NCBI RefSeq assembly: GCF_949769195.1 | Contig: NZ_OX458333.1 | Span: 1,674,001 to 1,738,000, forward strand | Direction of reading: 5' to 3' | Source of the DNA: Methylocaldum szegediense | GTDB taxonomy: Bacteria > Pseudomonadota > Gammaproteobacteria > Methylococcales > Methylococcaceae | Length of the DNA stretch: 64,000 nucleotides | Shown here: positions 31,168-36,334 of the stretch, piece after piece | Layout: each line of letters opens with the position of its first letter | Position numbering within the stretch: position 1 is the first letter of the stretch | Notes under the pieces: model-generated | Seen by the model: the letters and a program-made list of their open reading frames with translations, nothing else | What the model was told of the DNA's origin: nothing | Database searches by the model: none | Program-made: the position numbers and the translations under genes

Positions 31168-31794
31168 ACCGCCGGTAGTGCATGGAGACGGCCTATGTGA
31201 AGCCGGAATGCGGAGTTCTTTACTTAGAGCGCTTTCATCGCTGACGTACGCTGGAAAAGGAAGCTGCGTTTGGCAGCCGGTGAGTTTGAAGCAGGTCGCG
31301 CTCCACCGGCGAGGCACTTTTGCAAACCCCTTGTGGGGCTGCGCCCACAAGTCCCGGGAGTCCTTCCCTGGCGCCCACAAGTCCCGGGAGTCCTTCCCTG
31401 GCCCCCGCTTGCCTTGGGAGCGCCACGGCGAGCTCCCAGGATCTGCCCCTTGGGCTAGCCTTTGGCTGTCTACTGACAACGTCCTTTCCTCGACGTTGCC
31501 CTTCGGGCGAACGTTGTTCGTCTCATTCCGCTCTCGGGAGAATGGTCGCTTCCGGCGAATTTATTCAAAGCTTCCGAAACTTGATAACCTTGCTGCATGC
31601 CGGCAGCGACAGCTATGTACCCTACGATTTTCGGCAGTTGAGCTTAATGCCATTCCGCATTCGAATGAACATGAATCGTAGGGTAAGTTAGGTCGCTCGG
31701 TGGGTTACGGCCTCACGGCCTAACCCACCCTACAAAAATTAATGCTTTATTGAAAGCGATTTGGAAAAAGGCAGCTTTAATACCCTCTCCTCTC
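31168..31794. repeat. Gene-free stretch with tandem, palindromic and MITE-like repeats
   Basis: No credible gene. It contains TTAGAGCGCTTTCATC at 31224-31239, resembling the MITE-like ends at 16535 and 35656. There is a perfect 30-bp direct repeat at 31341-31370 and 31371-31400, and a GGTGGGTTACGGCC palindrome at 31699-31733 followed by AATTAATGC. A degenerate reverse MITE-like end (TTGAAAGCGAT) lies at 31750-31760. The promoter of the two-component genes should be near 31740-31790. Confidence 0.65.
31341..31400. repeat. Perfect 30-bp tandem duplication
   Basis: GCGCCCACAAGTCCCGGGAG followed by TCCTTCCCTG occurs twice head to tail without a mismatch. The preceding CTTGTGGGGCTGCGCCCACAAG can form a hairpin with the first copy. 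Two units only, no spacers. Confidence 0.9.
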
Positions 31795-32457
31795 ATGCGA
31801 ATTCTGCTTGTCGAAGATGACCCCTCGCTCGGAGCCACACTCCAATCTTGGCTCCAACTCGACGGCTACGCTGTCGACTGGGTACGGCGTGGCGATCTCG
31901 CCGAAACCGCGCTGCGGACGCAGCCCTATCAGTGCGTCCTGCTCGATCGCGGCCTGCCCGGACTCAGCGGCGATGGGCTGCTGTCCGGCCTGCGCGCTCG
32001 CCGCAGCGACGTGCCGGTGCTGATGATCACCGCCCGCGACACTCTGCACGATCGCATCGAAGGACTCGATCTCGGCGCCGATGATTACCTCGTCAAACCG
32101 TTCGACCTGGAGGAACTATCGGCGCGTATTCGTGCCGCGATCCGGCGCGGTGCGCGACAGGCCACTGCCGTGCTGCGTCACGGCCGGATCGAACTCGATC
32201 CCGCCGCCAAACAGGTCCGCCGCGACGGCGAACCGGTCGTACTCACCGCGCGCGAGTTTGCGGTGCTGCACGCGTTGATGCTGCACGGGCAACAGACGCT
32301 CAGCCGGGCACAGCTCGAAGACGTGCTATACGGTTGGGGCGAGGAAGTGGAGAGCAATGCGGTCGAGGTACACGTCCATCACCTGCGCCGGAAACTCGGC
32401 CGGGGTCTGATTCGCACCGTGCGCGGCCTCGGCTACGCCTTGGCTCCGCCGCCATGA
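31795..32457 (+). CDS. OmpR/QseB-type response regulator
   Basis: 220 residues from ATG 31795 (MRILLVEDDPSLG). An earlier in-frame ATG at 31750 would add residues unlike the family. Receiver domain with acidic pocket EDD (7-9), phospho-acceptor D51 in VLLDRGLPG, Thr in MITAR and Lys in DYLVKPF (~102). Winged-helix DNA-binding domain (LTAREFAVLHALMLH, VEVHVHHLRRKLG, RTVRGLGYAL). It resembles QseB/PmrA regulators. Its stop overlaps the histidine kinase start (ATGA). A CTTAAG-N5-CTTAAG box at 33855, in front of ygiW, is a likely target. Confidence 0.93.
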   Translation: MRILLVEDDPSLGATLQSWLQLDGYAVDWVRRGDLAETALRTQPYQCVLLDRGLPGLSGDGLLSGLRARRSDVPVLMITARDTLHDRIEGLDLGADDYLVKPFDLEELSARIRAAIRRGARQATAVLRHGRIELDPAAKQVRRDGEPVVLTAREFAVLHALMLHGQQTLSRAQLEDVLYGWGEEVESNAVEVHVHHLRRKLGRGLIRTVRGLGYALAPPP

Positions 32458-33842
32458 TCCGTTTCGATCGGCTTCGGAGGTCCATAGGGAGGGCTCCCGG
32501 TCCTGGCCGCCCCTATTCGCTGCGCCGACGGCTGCTCGCCTCTCTGCTGGGCGCGAGCGCGCTGCTTTGGCTGGTCAGCCTGGGGATCATGGTCGGCATC
32601 GCCTGGGACGAAACCAACGAGGTCTTCGACGATGGTCTCGAAGACGCCGCCTATCTCATCCGGGCGGCCGCCGCCGGCCTACCGCAGCCGGGCGCGCCCA
32701 TCGCCGATCCCATCGACCGGGACGGCCGCCATGCCGGGCTGTACTACCAGATTATCGCCGGCGACCGCGTCCTGCGCCGCGCCGGAACGGCGCCCGAGGA
32801 GCCGTTCGTGACCGGTTTCGACAAGCGCAAGGGCTTTCGCACGGTTCTGATCGGCGTCGTGCCGTGGCGGGTGTTCGTGTTGCGCAGCCGGGATAACAGC
32901 TTCGAAGTACAGGTCGGTCAGCCCTTGGAGGCGCGCACGGAAATCCTCGAGGAACTGGCCGAGAATCTGACCTGGCCGGCCCTGGGCCTTTTGGCGCTGC
33001 TCGGCGCGGTCATCTGGCTGGCGGTCGGCCGGCTGGTCCGTCCGATCGAGCAGACCGCATTCGCCATCGCCCAGAAGACGCCAGAGGACCTGACACCGGT
33101 GGCGGTTGCCGACCCGCCGCTGGAACTGTCGCCGATCATCGCTTCGCTCAACACCGTCTTCGCCCGCCTGGACAAGGCGCTGCAATCGGAGCGCCGTTTC
33201 ACCGCCGACGCCGCTCACGAGTTGCGCACTCCGCTGGCGGCGCTACGCATGAAGATTCAGCTGCTGGAGCGCCAGCACCCCGAACACCAATCCTCGCTGC
33301 GGATGCTGCGCGACGACGCCGACCGCTGCACCGCCCTGGTCGAAAACCTGCTCGCGCTCGCTCGCCTCGATGCCGATCGCCCGGATCTTCTCGCCCGCGA
33401 GCCGGTTGCGCTGCCCACACTGCTCGACGAACTGCGCCGGTTCTATGCCGGGCAGGCCGAAACCCGGCAGATCGAGCTGCAGATCGACTGCCGGGCAGCC
33501 ATGCTGTACGGCAATGCAGAGCTGCTGCGCGTGGCCTTGCGCAACCTGCTCGACAACGCGCTGCGCTACTGCCCGCCGCACAGCCGCGTGCGGATCGAGG
33601 CGCAATCCAGCGCTCAAGGGGTGCGCCTCGCCGTGCGCGACGACGGTCCCGGCGTGCCGGAAGCCCAGCGTGACCGACTGGCAGAACGGTTCTTCCGCGT
33701 GCTCGGCACCGACCAGACGGGCAGCGGACTGGGCCTGTCGATCGTCGAACGCATCGCCGCGCTGCACGGCGCTGCCTTGCGCTTCGAAGACGGGCTCGAT
33801 CGTCGCGGGCTGGGCGTGATCCTGGATTTCCCGCAGATCTGA
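32454..33842 (+). CDS. Sensor histidine kinase, QseC/PmrB-like
   Basis: 462 residues from ATG 32454. Two membrane spans (~28-50 and ~180-203) enclose a periplasmic sensor of about 125 residues. There is a short HAMP-like linker (GRLVRPIEQTAFAI), the dimerisation/phosphotransfer H-box with H255 (FTADAAHELRTPLAALR), and the N (LLDNALRY), G1 (DDGPGVP) and G2 (GSGLGLSIV) boxes of the ATPase domain. It pairs with the preceding regulator. The signal is unknown; QseC/PmrB relatives sense cations or host/redox cues. Confidence 0.93.
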   Translation: MIRFDRLRRSIGRAPGPGRPYSLRRRLLASLLGASALLWLVSLGIMVGIAWDETNEVFDDGLEDAAYLIRAAAAGLPQPGAPIADPIDRDGRHAGLYYQIIAGDRVLRRAGTAPEEPFVTGFDKRKGFRTVLIGVVPWRVFVLRSRDNSFEVQVGQPLEARTEILEELAENLTWPALGLLALLGAVIWLAVGRLVRPIEQTAFAIAQKTPEDLTPVAVADPPLELSPIIASLNTVFARLDKALQSERRFTADAAHELRTPLAALRMKIQLLERQHPEHQSSLRMLRDDADRCTALVENLLALARLDADRPDLLAREPVALPTLLDELRRFYAGQAETRQIELQIDCRAAMLYGNAELLRVALRNLLDNALRYCPPHSRVRIEAQSSAQGVRLAVRDDGPGVPEAQRDRLAERFFRVLGTDQTGSGLGLSIVERIAALHGAALRFEDGLDRRGLGVILDFPQI

Positions 33843-33854
33843 GACGAATCACCG

Positions 33855-33871
33855 CTTAAGAATTCCTTAAG
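33855..33871 (+). promoter_or_regulatory. PmrA/QseB-type regulator box
   Basis: CTTAAG-AATTC-CTTAAG: two perfect hexamers spaced by five bases, the direct-repeat pattern bound by PmrA/QseB response regulators. It lies 80 bases upstream of ygiW and 13 bases after the kinase stop. A plausible -10 (TTGAAT, 33882-33887) follows at the usual distance. Confidence 0.7.
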
Positions 33872-33893
33872 CTCGGAGCGTTTGAATGACCCC

Positions 33894-33916
33894 ATGCGCC
33901 GCCCCTCGCGGCGCAT
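33894..33916 (+). terminator. Strong hairpin in the ygiW leader (terminator- or attenuator-like)
   Basis: ATGCGCCGC / GCGGCGCAT form a perfect nine-base stem with loop CCCTC, followed by TTTAA. It lies between the putative regulator box and the ygiW start. It could end read-through from the kinase gene or sit at the 5' end of the ygiW message. Confidence 0.5.
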
Positions 33917-33952
33917 TTAACCCCTTCACTGTCATTCAAGAGGAGTACCGTC

Positions 33953-34300
33953 ATGAAACGCTTACTGATTGCGGGCGTTCTCGGTCTCGCCGCCACCGCC
34001 GCGCTGGCGGAATACACCGGCCCGAGCGCCGTGCCCGCCATGACCGTCAAGCAGCTGCTGGAAACCGGCGTGGACGATCAATACGCCACGCTGCAGGGCC
34101 GGCTGGTGTCCCACGAGGGCGGCAAGCACTACACCTTCGCCGACGATACCGGCCAGTTGCGGGTGGAGATTTCCCCCAAGCGACTGCCGGCCGGCCAGCC
34201 GCTCGATGCCAAGACGCGGGTGGAGATCACCGGCGAGTTCGACAAGGACTTCGGCGAGCCGCCGGAACTGGAAGTCGAGCAGATCAAGATTCTGCCTTGA
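33953..34300 (+). CDS. ygiW: YgiW/BOF-fold periplasmic protein
   Basis: 115 residues behind an AGAGGAG site. Signal peptide 1-~19 (MKRLLIAGVLGLAATAALA), then a bacterial OB-fold (BOF) domain: VPAMTVKQLLETGVDDQYATL, LVSHEGGKHYTFADDTGQLRVEI and VEITGEFDKDF match YgiW/NirD-type proteins. In enterobacteria ygiW is encoded next to qseBC and is induced under stress. The same arrangement here, with a regulator box in front, supports a common regulon. The precise function of the family is not settled. Confidence 0.9.
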   Translation: MKRLLIAGVLGLAATAALAEYTGPSAVPAMTVKQLLETGVDDQYATLQGRLVSHEGGKHYTFADDTGQLRVEISPKRLPAGQPLDAKTRVEITGEFDKDFGEPPELEVEQIKILP

Positions 34301-34376
34301 TCCGCCGCGGGAAGGGCGGCCGCACCCCGCCGCCCGTCCCGGCCAGCCGTCTTGCAAAGTCTTGGGAAATCCAACG

Positions 34377-35144
34377 ATGCGCAGAGTTCATTCGGACGCG
34401 CCAACCCACTCCGGGAAGCCCAGCCGCCGCCGTGTCCCGGCCTGGTTATTCCGGCTCGGCCTGGCCGCCGGCATGCTCCTGGCCACCGGGGCGCAGGCCG
34501 ACTCGGTCGAAAGCATGGCGGGTAACTGGAGTTCGCTCACCCTGTCCGGAGATTTCGGCGATTTCTCGCCCAGGCTTCAGGAATTCCGCTGGTTTCTCAT
34601 GAATCAGACCCGCCTGCGGGACGACAATCCCGATGCGTGGCGCCTCTCCGAGGACCTGCTTAGGTTTCAACTGGGCTACGACCTGAATTCATACGCCAGC
34701 GTCTGGCTGGGCTATGTTAACGAGTGGCACCATTCGCTGGGCAAGGCGGCGTTCCAGGAAAGCAGGCCCTACGCGGCTCTCCAGTTCGACTTTCCGATCG
34801 CGGGATTCAAAGCCCAGGTCCGCACCCGCATCGAACAGCGGATCAACCGCGTTACGGGCAATGTAGGCGTTCGCCTGAGGCAGGCGCTCAAGCTTCGGCT
34901 ACCGCTCGAATTCATCGATCCCAAGCTGTCCCTCTACCTGGGAGACGAGGTGTTCGGCTATCTGAACACCAACACTTTCGGGCCAACCGGTTTCAGCGAA
35001 AACCGCGCCATGGCGGGATTCGGTCTGAAACTGACCCGGCGGCTCAGCGTTGACCTGGGATATCTGGGGCAAACCATTCAGAAAATCAGTGGCGACGTGA
35101 CCCTCACGCACAATGTTTATGCCAACGTGAGTTATCGGTTTTGA
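34377..35144 (+). CDS. DUF2490 family outer-membrane beta-barrel protein
   Basis: 255 residues from ATG 34377. A long N-region and signal peptide (FRLGLAAGMLLATGAQA, cleavage near residue 41) precede repeated amphipathic beta-strands and the C-terminal aromatic signature YANVSYRF. GNWSSLTLSGDFGD, LGYVNEWHHSLG, RTRIEQRI, LSLYLGDEVFGYLN, FSENRAMAGFGLKL and GYLGQ follow the DUF2490 pattern (strand-ending NR/RxExR). It lies 76 bases after ygiW on the same strand, so it is probably cotranscribed. The family has no defined function. Confidence 0.82.
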   Translation: MRRVHSDAPTHSGKPSRRRVPAWLFRLGLAAGMLLATGAQADSVESMAGNWSSLTLSGDFGDFSPRLQEFRWFLMNQTRLRDDNPDAWRLSEDLLRFQLGYDLNSYASVWLGYVNEWHHSLGKAAFQESRPYAALQFDFPIAGFKAQVRTRIEQRINRVTGNVGVRLRQALKLRLPLEFIDPKLSLYLGDEVFGYLNTNTFGPTGFSENRAMAGFGLKLTRRLSVDLGYLGQTIQKISGDVTLTHNVYANVSYRF

Positions 35145-35231
35145 GTCCGTTGCATGCGATCAATCCTGCATCGGCGCCGCCGGCCGATGAGCGGGCTTTG
35201 ACGCCGTCCAATGCTCGTAGTAGGTGCTCTC

Positions 35232-36334
35232 ATGAACGATGCCGTACAAAAAATCAGAAAAGCCCGATTGCCCTTGCGCATTCTGCATTGGCTAACCGCA
35301 ATCGCCATCACTTTCGCGTGGATATTCGTTTACTCGAAGGGTCTGTTCGCGAAGGGATCCCCGGAACGCGTATTTCTTACCGGGGCACACGTCTTTGCGG
35401 GGCTGACGGTGCTGACATTATTGCCGCTGCGTGTCGCGGCAAGATGGCTCTGGGCATTGCCCGCGATCGAACCTAGTCCGCCATTGTGGCAGATGCGATT
35501 ATCCAGCGTGGTACAGATTCTGCTTTATGCCGGCATGCTTTCGACCCCTGTGTTGGGTGTGCTGCTTATGCAAAGCAGTGGAAAGGAACTTGCTTTTCTC
35601 GGCTTGACGCTGCCAGCCCTGGTTGACGCAAACAAGACACTGTCGCACACGATTAGAGCGTTTTCATTTTGTTTATACGGCATGGCTGGCGTTGCGGAAG
35701 TCATTTACCCGTAGTGGATAGCTTCAGAATGATCGGGAAGGCCCAAGCGATCATGTGGTGTCCGAGTGTCGAGGGTCGAAGCTTCAATGGTACGCCGCCA
35801 CAAAGGCTGTAATGTAGGGCCGATCAGTCAGCATGTACCGCCATTTCGCGGCATGCGGCGGGTTACGGCCTGACGGCCTAACCCGCCCTACCTCACTTAT
35901 GTCAACCTGCAAGATCGTCATTCCGGCATGGATTGCCGGAATCCAGGGGCCAAGGACGGCGAAACGTTTGCATCCCTGCCATCTGGATCCCGGTAATCCT
36001 CGCCGGGGCAGCGGGTTTTGGTCCTTCACGGCTTGTAAGCGGCGTGACATAAAACCATAGAACGTCAGGCATGATCCGCGGTGTATTTGGTGCGGTTCGC
36101 CTCGCTCACCGGCACCCTACAACATTGGTTGTGGTGAGCGAAACGGGCTTTTCCGCCGCCTACGAACGGGCAAACGATCTTCACCCGTCAGACGGCCAGT
36201 CGTTCCTTCAGCGCTTTAAGGAAGCGCACGAGGCATTGGGCGTTGCGATGTTGTACCTGGTCATCGCACATGCCGCCGCGGCAGTATGGCATCATTTCAT
36301 CCGCCGGGATAACGCTTTGCGGCGCGTCTTGTAA
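35232..36334 (+). pseudogene. Cytochrome b561, interrupted by a 561-bp element
   Basis: N-terminal part from ATG 35232: MNDAVQKIRKARLPLRILHW, helices with heme-ligand histidines in RILHWLTA and TGAHVFAGL, to ...ANKTLSHTI at 35654. C-terminal part from 36219: KEAHEALGVAMLYLVIAHAA with the remaining His ligands, ending RRDNALRRVL. Deleting 35656-36218 (element plus one TA) rejoins ACGATTAAGGAAGCG in frame and yields a 179-residue protein, the normal length for this diheme membrane electron carrier. Read through the insertion, the frame stops at 35712, so only about 160 residues with foreign ends would be made. Confidence 0.88.
35656..36216. mobile_element. 561-bp TA-flanked non-coding element inside cytochrome b561
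   Basis: Bordered by TA (35654-35655 and 36217-36218). Left end GAGCGTTTTCATTTTGTTTA is identical to an end of the 184-bp element at 16535-16718. The right end (AAGCGCTGAAGG on the minus strand) is a weak inverted match. The interior has no gene. It carries a GGTGGGTTA-type palindrome (35857-35891), a GTCATTCCGGCATGGATTGC repeat (35918-35950) and a GCGGTTCGC palindrome (36089-36120), suggesting a composite of older intergenic repeats. Confidence 0.7.

Follow-up and report, generated by a model that had tools for sequence, protein, structure and literature searches.

The window analysed here, 64,000 nucleotides of the Methylocaldum szegediense genome (NCBI RefSeq assembly GCF_949769195.1, contig NZ_OX458333.1, positions 1,674,001 to 1,738,000), contains four consecutive genes on the same strand, encoding a response regulator, a sensor histidine kinase, a YgiW-type protein and a DUF2490 protein, with a repeat of CTTAAG in the gap between the kinase gene and ygiW (Table 1). 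The regulator scores above the gathering score for both Response_reg and Trans_reg_C of Pfam, as expected of the OmpR/PhoB family. Its best full-length matches in PDB are PmrA/BasR, the best match for its DNA-binding domain is Pseudomonas aeruginosa CarR, and its recognition helix is identical to that of E. coli QseB. An earlier note on this DNA had called the pair QseBC-like; the helix bears the name out, but the regulator falls under the equivalog cut-offs for both QseB (PRK10336, 231.1 bits against 345) and PmrA (PRK10643, 231.4 bits against 330), and the kinase under that for QseC (PRK10337, 225.9 bits against 475). The same note compared the gene neighbourhood with that of enterobacteria, a parallel that holds insofar as the box lies between the pair and ygiW, but not in orientation, since in E. 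coli ygiW and qseBC point away from each other, and the gene here is downstream on the same strand. The YgiW-type protein exceeds the cut-offs of Pfam BOF (59.2 bits against 25.8) and NF033674 (99.1 bits against 35), and scores 54.9 bits to the YgiW/YdeI subfamily model TIGR00156, below its cut-off of 108.15. DUF2490 is tied to ygiW solely as the next gene, in an order kept in four Methylococcales copies.

Table 1. Features of the regulator-kinase-ygiW-DUF2490 locus, in positions of the window.
Feature	Position	Strand	Basis or remark
Response regulator gene, QseB/PmrA-like (OmpR/PhoB family), recognition helix SNAVEVHVHHLRRKLG with His195	31795..32457	+	Pfam, NCBIfam, PDB
Sensor histidine kinase gene, QseC/PmrB-like, 2CSK_N sensor domain	32454..33842	+	Pfam HATPase_c, HisKA, 2CSK_N
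Half-site 1, CTTAAG	33855-33860	+	exact match
Spacer, AATTC	33861-33865	+	
Half-site 2, promoter-proximal, CTTAAG, fourth base A	33866-33871	+	exact match
-10-like hexamer, TTGAAT	33882-33887	+	starts 10 nt past box; spacing shared by related ygiW promoters
Leader hairpin of 9 bp: ATGCGCCGC (33894-33902), loop CCCTC, GCGGCGCAT (33908-33916)	33894-33916	+	at predicted +1
ygiW-type gene (BOF / NirD-YgiW-YdeI family stress tolerance protein)	33953..34300	+	Pfam BOF, NF033674
DUF2490 gene, possible second gene of ygiW transcript	34377..35144	+	Pfam DUF2490, 152.5 bits

Further along, a cytochrome b561 gene is seemingly split, with open reading frames at 35211-35714 and 36071-36334 matching positions 4-127 and 112-176 of the Pfam b561 profile. 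A 36-bp repeat lies between them at 35856-35891, and a 92% identical copy occurs at 31698-31733, ahead of the regulator gene. In Salmonella, a cytochrome b561 gene is reported among those activated with PreAB.

The box, claimed as perfect from the start, is exact over 33855-33871, 12 bases past the kinase stop codon and 81 bases ahead of the ygiW start codon, and is the sole exact copy of CTTAAG-N5-CTTAAG in the whole genome of 4,895,372 bases, for which a hand estimate from base composition gives a chance rate of about 0.15 per genome. It fits the quoted PmrA consensus (C/T)TTAA(G/T)-N5-(C/T)TTAA(G/T), or YTTAAK-N5-YTTAAK. The earlier note's description of it as a PmrA/QseB target stands for PmrA; for QseB, one paper quotes a different sequence as the E. 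coli consensus. Near-matches show no enrichment, with 6 box-like sites at up to three mismatches in the window against 9.8 expected, and 299 sites at up to two mismatches in the genome against 276 for a reversed-pattern control, counts that are inflated by a repeat array; the case for the box is thus the perfect site together with its location. The scan for further boxes that had been suggested as a check returned, besides the exact site, three one-mismatch sites, one within an open reading frame and two outside open reading frames of at least 90 amino acids, none of them promoter-like: in printed flanks read by eye, T..AAT was absent 10 nt beyond them in either direction. Sought genome-wide through the box, no wider regulon appeared among the sites listed, and nothing convincing was found ahead of the regulator gene in the window. 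With a single strong box, none clear at the regulator gene, and DUF2490 connected by adjacency, the "stress regulon" of regulator, ygiW and DUF2490 once proposed for this locus is not borne out. The array just mentioned (G000:C1, about 967490-974518, outside the window) is CRISPR-like, with at least 86 copies of CTTAATCCCTTCTTAAT, which resembles the box, at a spacing of about 70 bp.

The promoter has the layout half-site-N5-half-site-N10-T..AAT, which is found again in E. coli (CTTAAG-AAGTT-GTTAAG-N10-TTAAAT), in other genomes of its class and in genomes inferred to be Pasteurellaceae-like. Its frequency was assessed in 69 ygiW loci, 26 from the clade defined below and 43 others, after removal of three duplicates and with boxes chosen by half-sites alone. 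Of the clade loci, 25 have a unique best box, and T..AAT stands at N10 in 22 of them; in the three misses (L227, L228, L232) the hexamer begins with C, and one further locus (L226) has two equally good boxes. Among the 43 others it stands there in 9 of 27 loci with a unique best box and is absent in 18. Across spacings of 4 to 19, the only one to occur besides N10 was N15, once, in a clade locus. Earlier box picks had used a score that permitted A or C at base 4 and included the -10 at N10; a choice made without the -10 on a smaller set of 38 loci, partly selected for a good box, gave T..AAT at N10 in 31 of 36 loci with a unique best box, and the lower 69-locus figures are preferred. Within the clade the signature is thus all but universal, and some of the other ygiW loci share it. 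Exact 6-mer direct repeats likewise peak at period 11: after kinases this period occurs in 16 of 59 loci, where seven other periods give 1 to 8, and before regulators in 10 of 59, where other periods give 1 to 5. The shuffle expectation is about 2, and the 59 loci include four near-identical Methylococcales copies. Where ygiW is more distant, as in L227 and L238, a box of the matching type sits at ygiW. Four ygiW loci on megaplasmids, three of them from Burkholderia and one from Shinella, lack an adjacent pair on their strand; their best N10 scores are 8-9, and they stand outside the clade counts. Four high-GC ygiW genes (L181, L183, L190, L193), with no regulator-kinase match nearby, carry ATTCAG-N5-NTTCAG 10 nt before a TA-initial hexamer.

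No sigma-70-type -35/-10 pair was found at 33700-34450, which would be expected if a bound regulator substitutes for the -35 element. The locus thus has the layout of a putative activator-dependent promoter, an operator at a fixed distance from the -10 with no -35 consensus. Pho boxes likewise stand about 10 nt ahead of the -10. The box-N10-T..AAT layout is a precise ygiW promoter signature, usable for annotating QseB/PmrA-type regulons.

The nine-base-pair hairpin lies where it had been claimed to lie: TTGAAT, starting 10 nt past the box, places the beginning of the stem near the predicted +1. The fold of 33894-33955 has -19.9 kcal/mol and z -3.38, with 1 of 200 shuffles equally stable; started from 33888, z is -3.99 and no shuffle of 200 equals it. 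When 31 promoters were compared using single-base shuffles, a strong stem at the predicted +1 was seen in the window (z -4.0) and, with different sequence, in three Methylococcales relatives (z -3.4 to -3.7), moderate stems in L244 (z -3.0) and L229 (z -2.1), while the remaining 25 of 31 missed z -2. Strong stems are thus confined to the window and its Methylococcales relatives, a lineage in which the hairpin may stabilise the transcript; it does not belong to the conserved promoter. Rfam over 33700-34400 returned only two matches, both below the gathering score.

Relatives of the locus were sought in genome samples comprising 41, 26 and 56 relatives, 201 genomes of the order and 398 of the phylum, with further samples of 274 and 252 genomes of the class and of 180 and 165 genomes of two families. 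Among the 41 near genomes, ygiW matched only in the window's own; kinases above 690 bits occur in 4 of the 201 genomes of the order, one of which has two copies. Kinase relatives from a named genome collection (10 loci) were 23-34% identical, too distant to help. Absence of the box in relatives with the same gene order would, according to the earlier note, have refuted the proposed link, and the three closest such relatives indeed have no CTTAAG box at up to two mismatches; but their changed half-sites keep the geometry. All three, which are Methylococcales, have CTTCAT-ATTCG-CTTCAT directly after the kinase stop codon, then 10 nt, then TCAAAT, with half-site spacing equal to that of the window. 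These sequences also bear on the repeat's orientation: CTTAAG is palindromic, so the window alone fits direct and inverted repeats alike, and CTTCAT-N5-CTTCAT indicates a direct one.

The change in half-sites is matched by a change in the regulator. A clade of 26 loci was assembled from the window, the three Methylococcales relatives, L065, seven loci of family f115 and fourteen of family f188; left out were L158 (its genome already being represented by L157), L197 and L200 (the same places as L217 and L218), L224, L225, L235 and L243 (no ygiW found in the fetched flank), and L220 and L221 (kinases 38-40% identical, no ygiW). In the promoter-proximal half-site, base 4 is A in 14 of 14 loci whose regulator has His195, and C in 12 of 12 with Tyr195 (eleven) or Ser195 (one). 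Among 220 regulator columns, 195 is the only one to share no residue between the box classes. The distal half-site follows the same division in 25 of 26 loci. The exception, L237, is the sole Tyr195 regulator among the His195 group, and no other member of that group has C in half-site 2 at ygiW. Codon 195 reads CAT in the window and TAC in Methylomonas. On a kinase tree of 36 rows, without L209 and other outgroup loci, the box changes three times and residue 195 four times; the rows comprise 22 His/A, 12 Tyr or Ser/C, 2 Tyr/A and no His/C, the half-site of L186 having been set by hand after the automatic scan took another copy from its tandem ygiW set. That locus (in genome G815) has three tandem ygiW-type genes beside a qseBC-like pair, with a box ahead of the first. 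The tree places the window, with full support, as the sister of the Methylococcales relatives, which belong to the opposite class, so that the pair straddles a switch, at which gain and reversion are indistinguishable.

Boxes ahead of the regulator gene were scanned in 31 clade loci, what counts as a clear box being a matter of judgement. Seven members with helix EVHxHH (L065, L217, L230-L234) have TTAA in both halves, and nine with EVHxY (L218, L223-L229, L244) have TCA in both; for L065, L217, L230 and L231 this is the second-ranked scan match, or the top-ranked one shifted by a single base. The box of L237 reads CTTCAG/CTTCAT. In four EVYxHN members with His195 (L235, L236, L241, L242), half 1 reads TTAAG but half 2 reads TTCAT, indicating that His195 in company with Tyr193 tolerates C. 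None was clear in ten of the 31 (the window, L156-L159, L222, L238-L240 and L243).

The window regulator shares the residue numbering of PmrA. In an NMR and docking paper on Klebsiella PmrA, the half-site CTTAAT comprises bases 5-10, G46 lies in half 1, and the model puts His195 on THY43; by our arithmetic, partners under this numbering sum to 51, so that THY43 pairs with base 8, the fourth half-site base. A later crystal paper describes base-specific contacts by Asn188, Asn196 and Arg210 and hydrophobic base contacts by Thr187, Val192 and His195. A limited literature search found no description of a switch at residue 195.

A strict code of His for A and Tyr for C across the whole QseB/PmrA group was ruled out. 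The regulators of L064 and L206, from the presumptively Pasteurellaceae-like genomes, have Tyr195 with TTAA boxes, and CarR of P. aeruginosa, which we take to be the same regulator as BqsR, has Asn at this position. In a more distant PmrA/QseB-like group (L058, L059, L060, L062) with His195 and helix EVYxHRxRxR, CTTTCA-N5-CTTTCA repeats of period 11 begin 30-38 nt ahead of the regulator gene. The operator reported for BqsR is TTAAG-N6-TTAAG. These exceptions outside the clade, with the four EVYxHN operators inside it, make the rule context-dependent, and it is proposed for this clade only. There, residue 195 may set half-site base 4 (His with A in CTTAAG, Tyr or Ser with C in CTTCAT or CATCAG) and would have switched about three times together with the linked operator. 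With the window and its nearest relatives on opposite sides of a switch, we propose a mobile regulator-target cassette with a private, insulated DNA code, a reading whose chances, taken as a whole, we judge to be about even.

The competing reading of the same pattern, that the half-site change and residue 195 are independent lineage markers that coincide through drift or common descent and are causally unconnected, strikes us as rather unlikely, though several points favour it: the tree holds only three box changes, 419 of 4000 random three-change histories produced a perfect sorter somewhere in the regulator, and Tyr195 accompanies TTAA in L064 and L206. An independent-pairs sign test (two for, none against, one tied; p 0.5) had too few pairs, at least six differing ones being required. 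What weighs against coincidence is that the sorter falls within the DNA-reading helix, an outcome seen in 8 of 20,000 simulated three-change histories, and that L237, a lone Tyr195 among His195 sisters, has the lone C in half-site 2 and the pair CTTCAG/CTTCAT at its regulator gene.

Judging from sequence comparison, the box very probably acts as the adjacent regulator's operator at an activator-dependent ygiW promoter, and operator and recognition helix have changed together. The phosphorylated regulator would bind both half-sites head to tail; the box, ending 10 nt before the -10, would stand in for the -35; and the bound dimer would recruit RNA polymerase, so that ygiW, and possibly DUF2490, is transcribed from about 33894, where the stem may protect the 5' end. 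The cluster's history would then pair A at base 4 with His195, as in the window, and C with Tyr195 or Ser195, as in its closest relatives. Service of the box chiefly by another QseB/PmrA-type regulator, or by several, is improbable. A search of genome G000 with the kinase gives 42 matches at E<=0.001, the query among them, and published accounts describe interacting PmrA and QseB regulons in enterics and a PmrA consensus that the box fits; yet the next-best kinase relative there scores 169.6 bits against 1003.8, and an unlinked regulator would hardly give agreement between the box and the adjacent regulator in 26 of 26 loci. That the perfect box is a functionless palindromic repeat arisen by chance is scarcely credible, despite the lack of enrichment of near-matches, when its position and geometry repeat in many other genomes. 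For the hairpin alone, a role as weak terminator of the regulator-kinase transcript, in place of a ygiW leader element, would suit its G+C-rich stem 3' of the kinase gene; we consider it unlikely, as a scan of 33700-34450 turned up no terminator-like site with a T run, the three Methylococcales relatives have a different stem at the same place, and 25 of 27 other promoters fall below z -2 strength.

An operator for the adjacent regulator is in itself a known kind of element. The PmrA box of Salmonella, Klebsiella and Acinetobacter (PmrA/BasR) is likewise a YTTAAK-N5-YTTAAK direct repeat bound by head-to-tail OmpR/PhoB DNA-binding domains, but the targets of PmrA are lipid A genes, whereas the proposed target here is ygiW-DUF2490 beside the regulator, and relatives here have CTTCAT or CATCAG. 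The nearest parallel in gene content is QseBC (PreAB, FirRS) with YgiW in enterics and Haemophilus, where the neighbouring ygiW is reported to be under the pair's control; the helix and the E. coli geometry are the same, while here ygiW is downstream, co-directional and accompanied by DUF2490, and the proteins score as noted above. In Salmonella, ygiW (visP) was activated with PreAB, 22.6- and 36.8-fold on two arrays; primer extension there placed the ygiW start at -161, inside preA and away from the start codon, which tells against the start predicted here. A review describes activation of Haemophilus ygiW by QseBC with Fe(II), more weakly with Zn, and also with cold, and a Vibrio study has ygiW (visP) activated by VC1639 with polymyxin B (PMC5636140). 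For VbrR of Vibrio parahaemolyticus there is a structure of an OmpR/PhoB regulator on DNA whose half-sites are TTCTAAT and TTCATCG; H195A moderately weakens its binding, although this H195, in VbrR's own numbering, may be another position than residue 195 here. BqsSR/CarSR of P. aeruginosa resembles the present system in an activator operator, whose downstream pentamer overlaps the -35 at one promoter; it differs in residue 195 and in the 432 operators with up to two mutations counted in the P. aeruginosa genome.

New here is the visible co-change of an operator and the helix that reads it within one cassette, the window and its closest relatives standing on opposite sides. Because operators are scattered and turn over, a change of specificity with the target kept is seldom visible in response regulators. 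Here the regulator and its kinase sit beside the operator and its target, and the operators of different genomes align base by base, so that the change can be mapped onto a phylogeny, traced to a candidate residue and put to the test. The cassette therefore lets a change in a regulator's DNA specificity be followed and tested in proteins of methane-oxidising bacteria. CarO of P. aeruginosa, incidentally, is presumably an OB-fold protein like YgiW.

The cassette looks horizontally mobile among these bacteria. Plasmid pFW12EY of Methylomonas koyamae (L156) carries the same four genes in the same order, downstream of genes for a Tn3-type transposase, an IS481 transposase and a recombinase, an arrangement from which we infer mobility. 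The regulator-kinase-ygiW-DUF2490 cassette occurs twice in genome G369 (L157 and L158), and the regulator of the window is 77-79% identical to those of its nearest plasmid- and chromosome-borne relatives. In three loci of the window's own family (L047, L054, L166), a one-mismatch box, CTTAAG-N5-TTTAAG, lies between another regulator-kinase pair and a protease-like gene, whose product, by eye from its sequence, resembles a trypsin-like protease of the HtrA/DegP kind; the design of kinase, box and neighbouring target thus also exists with another target.
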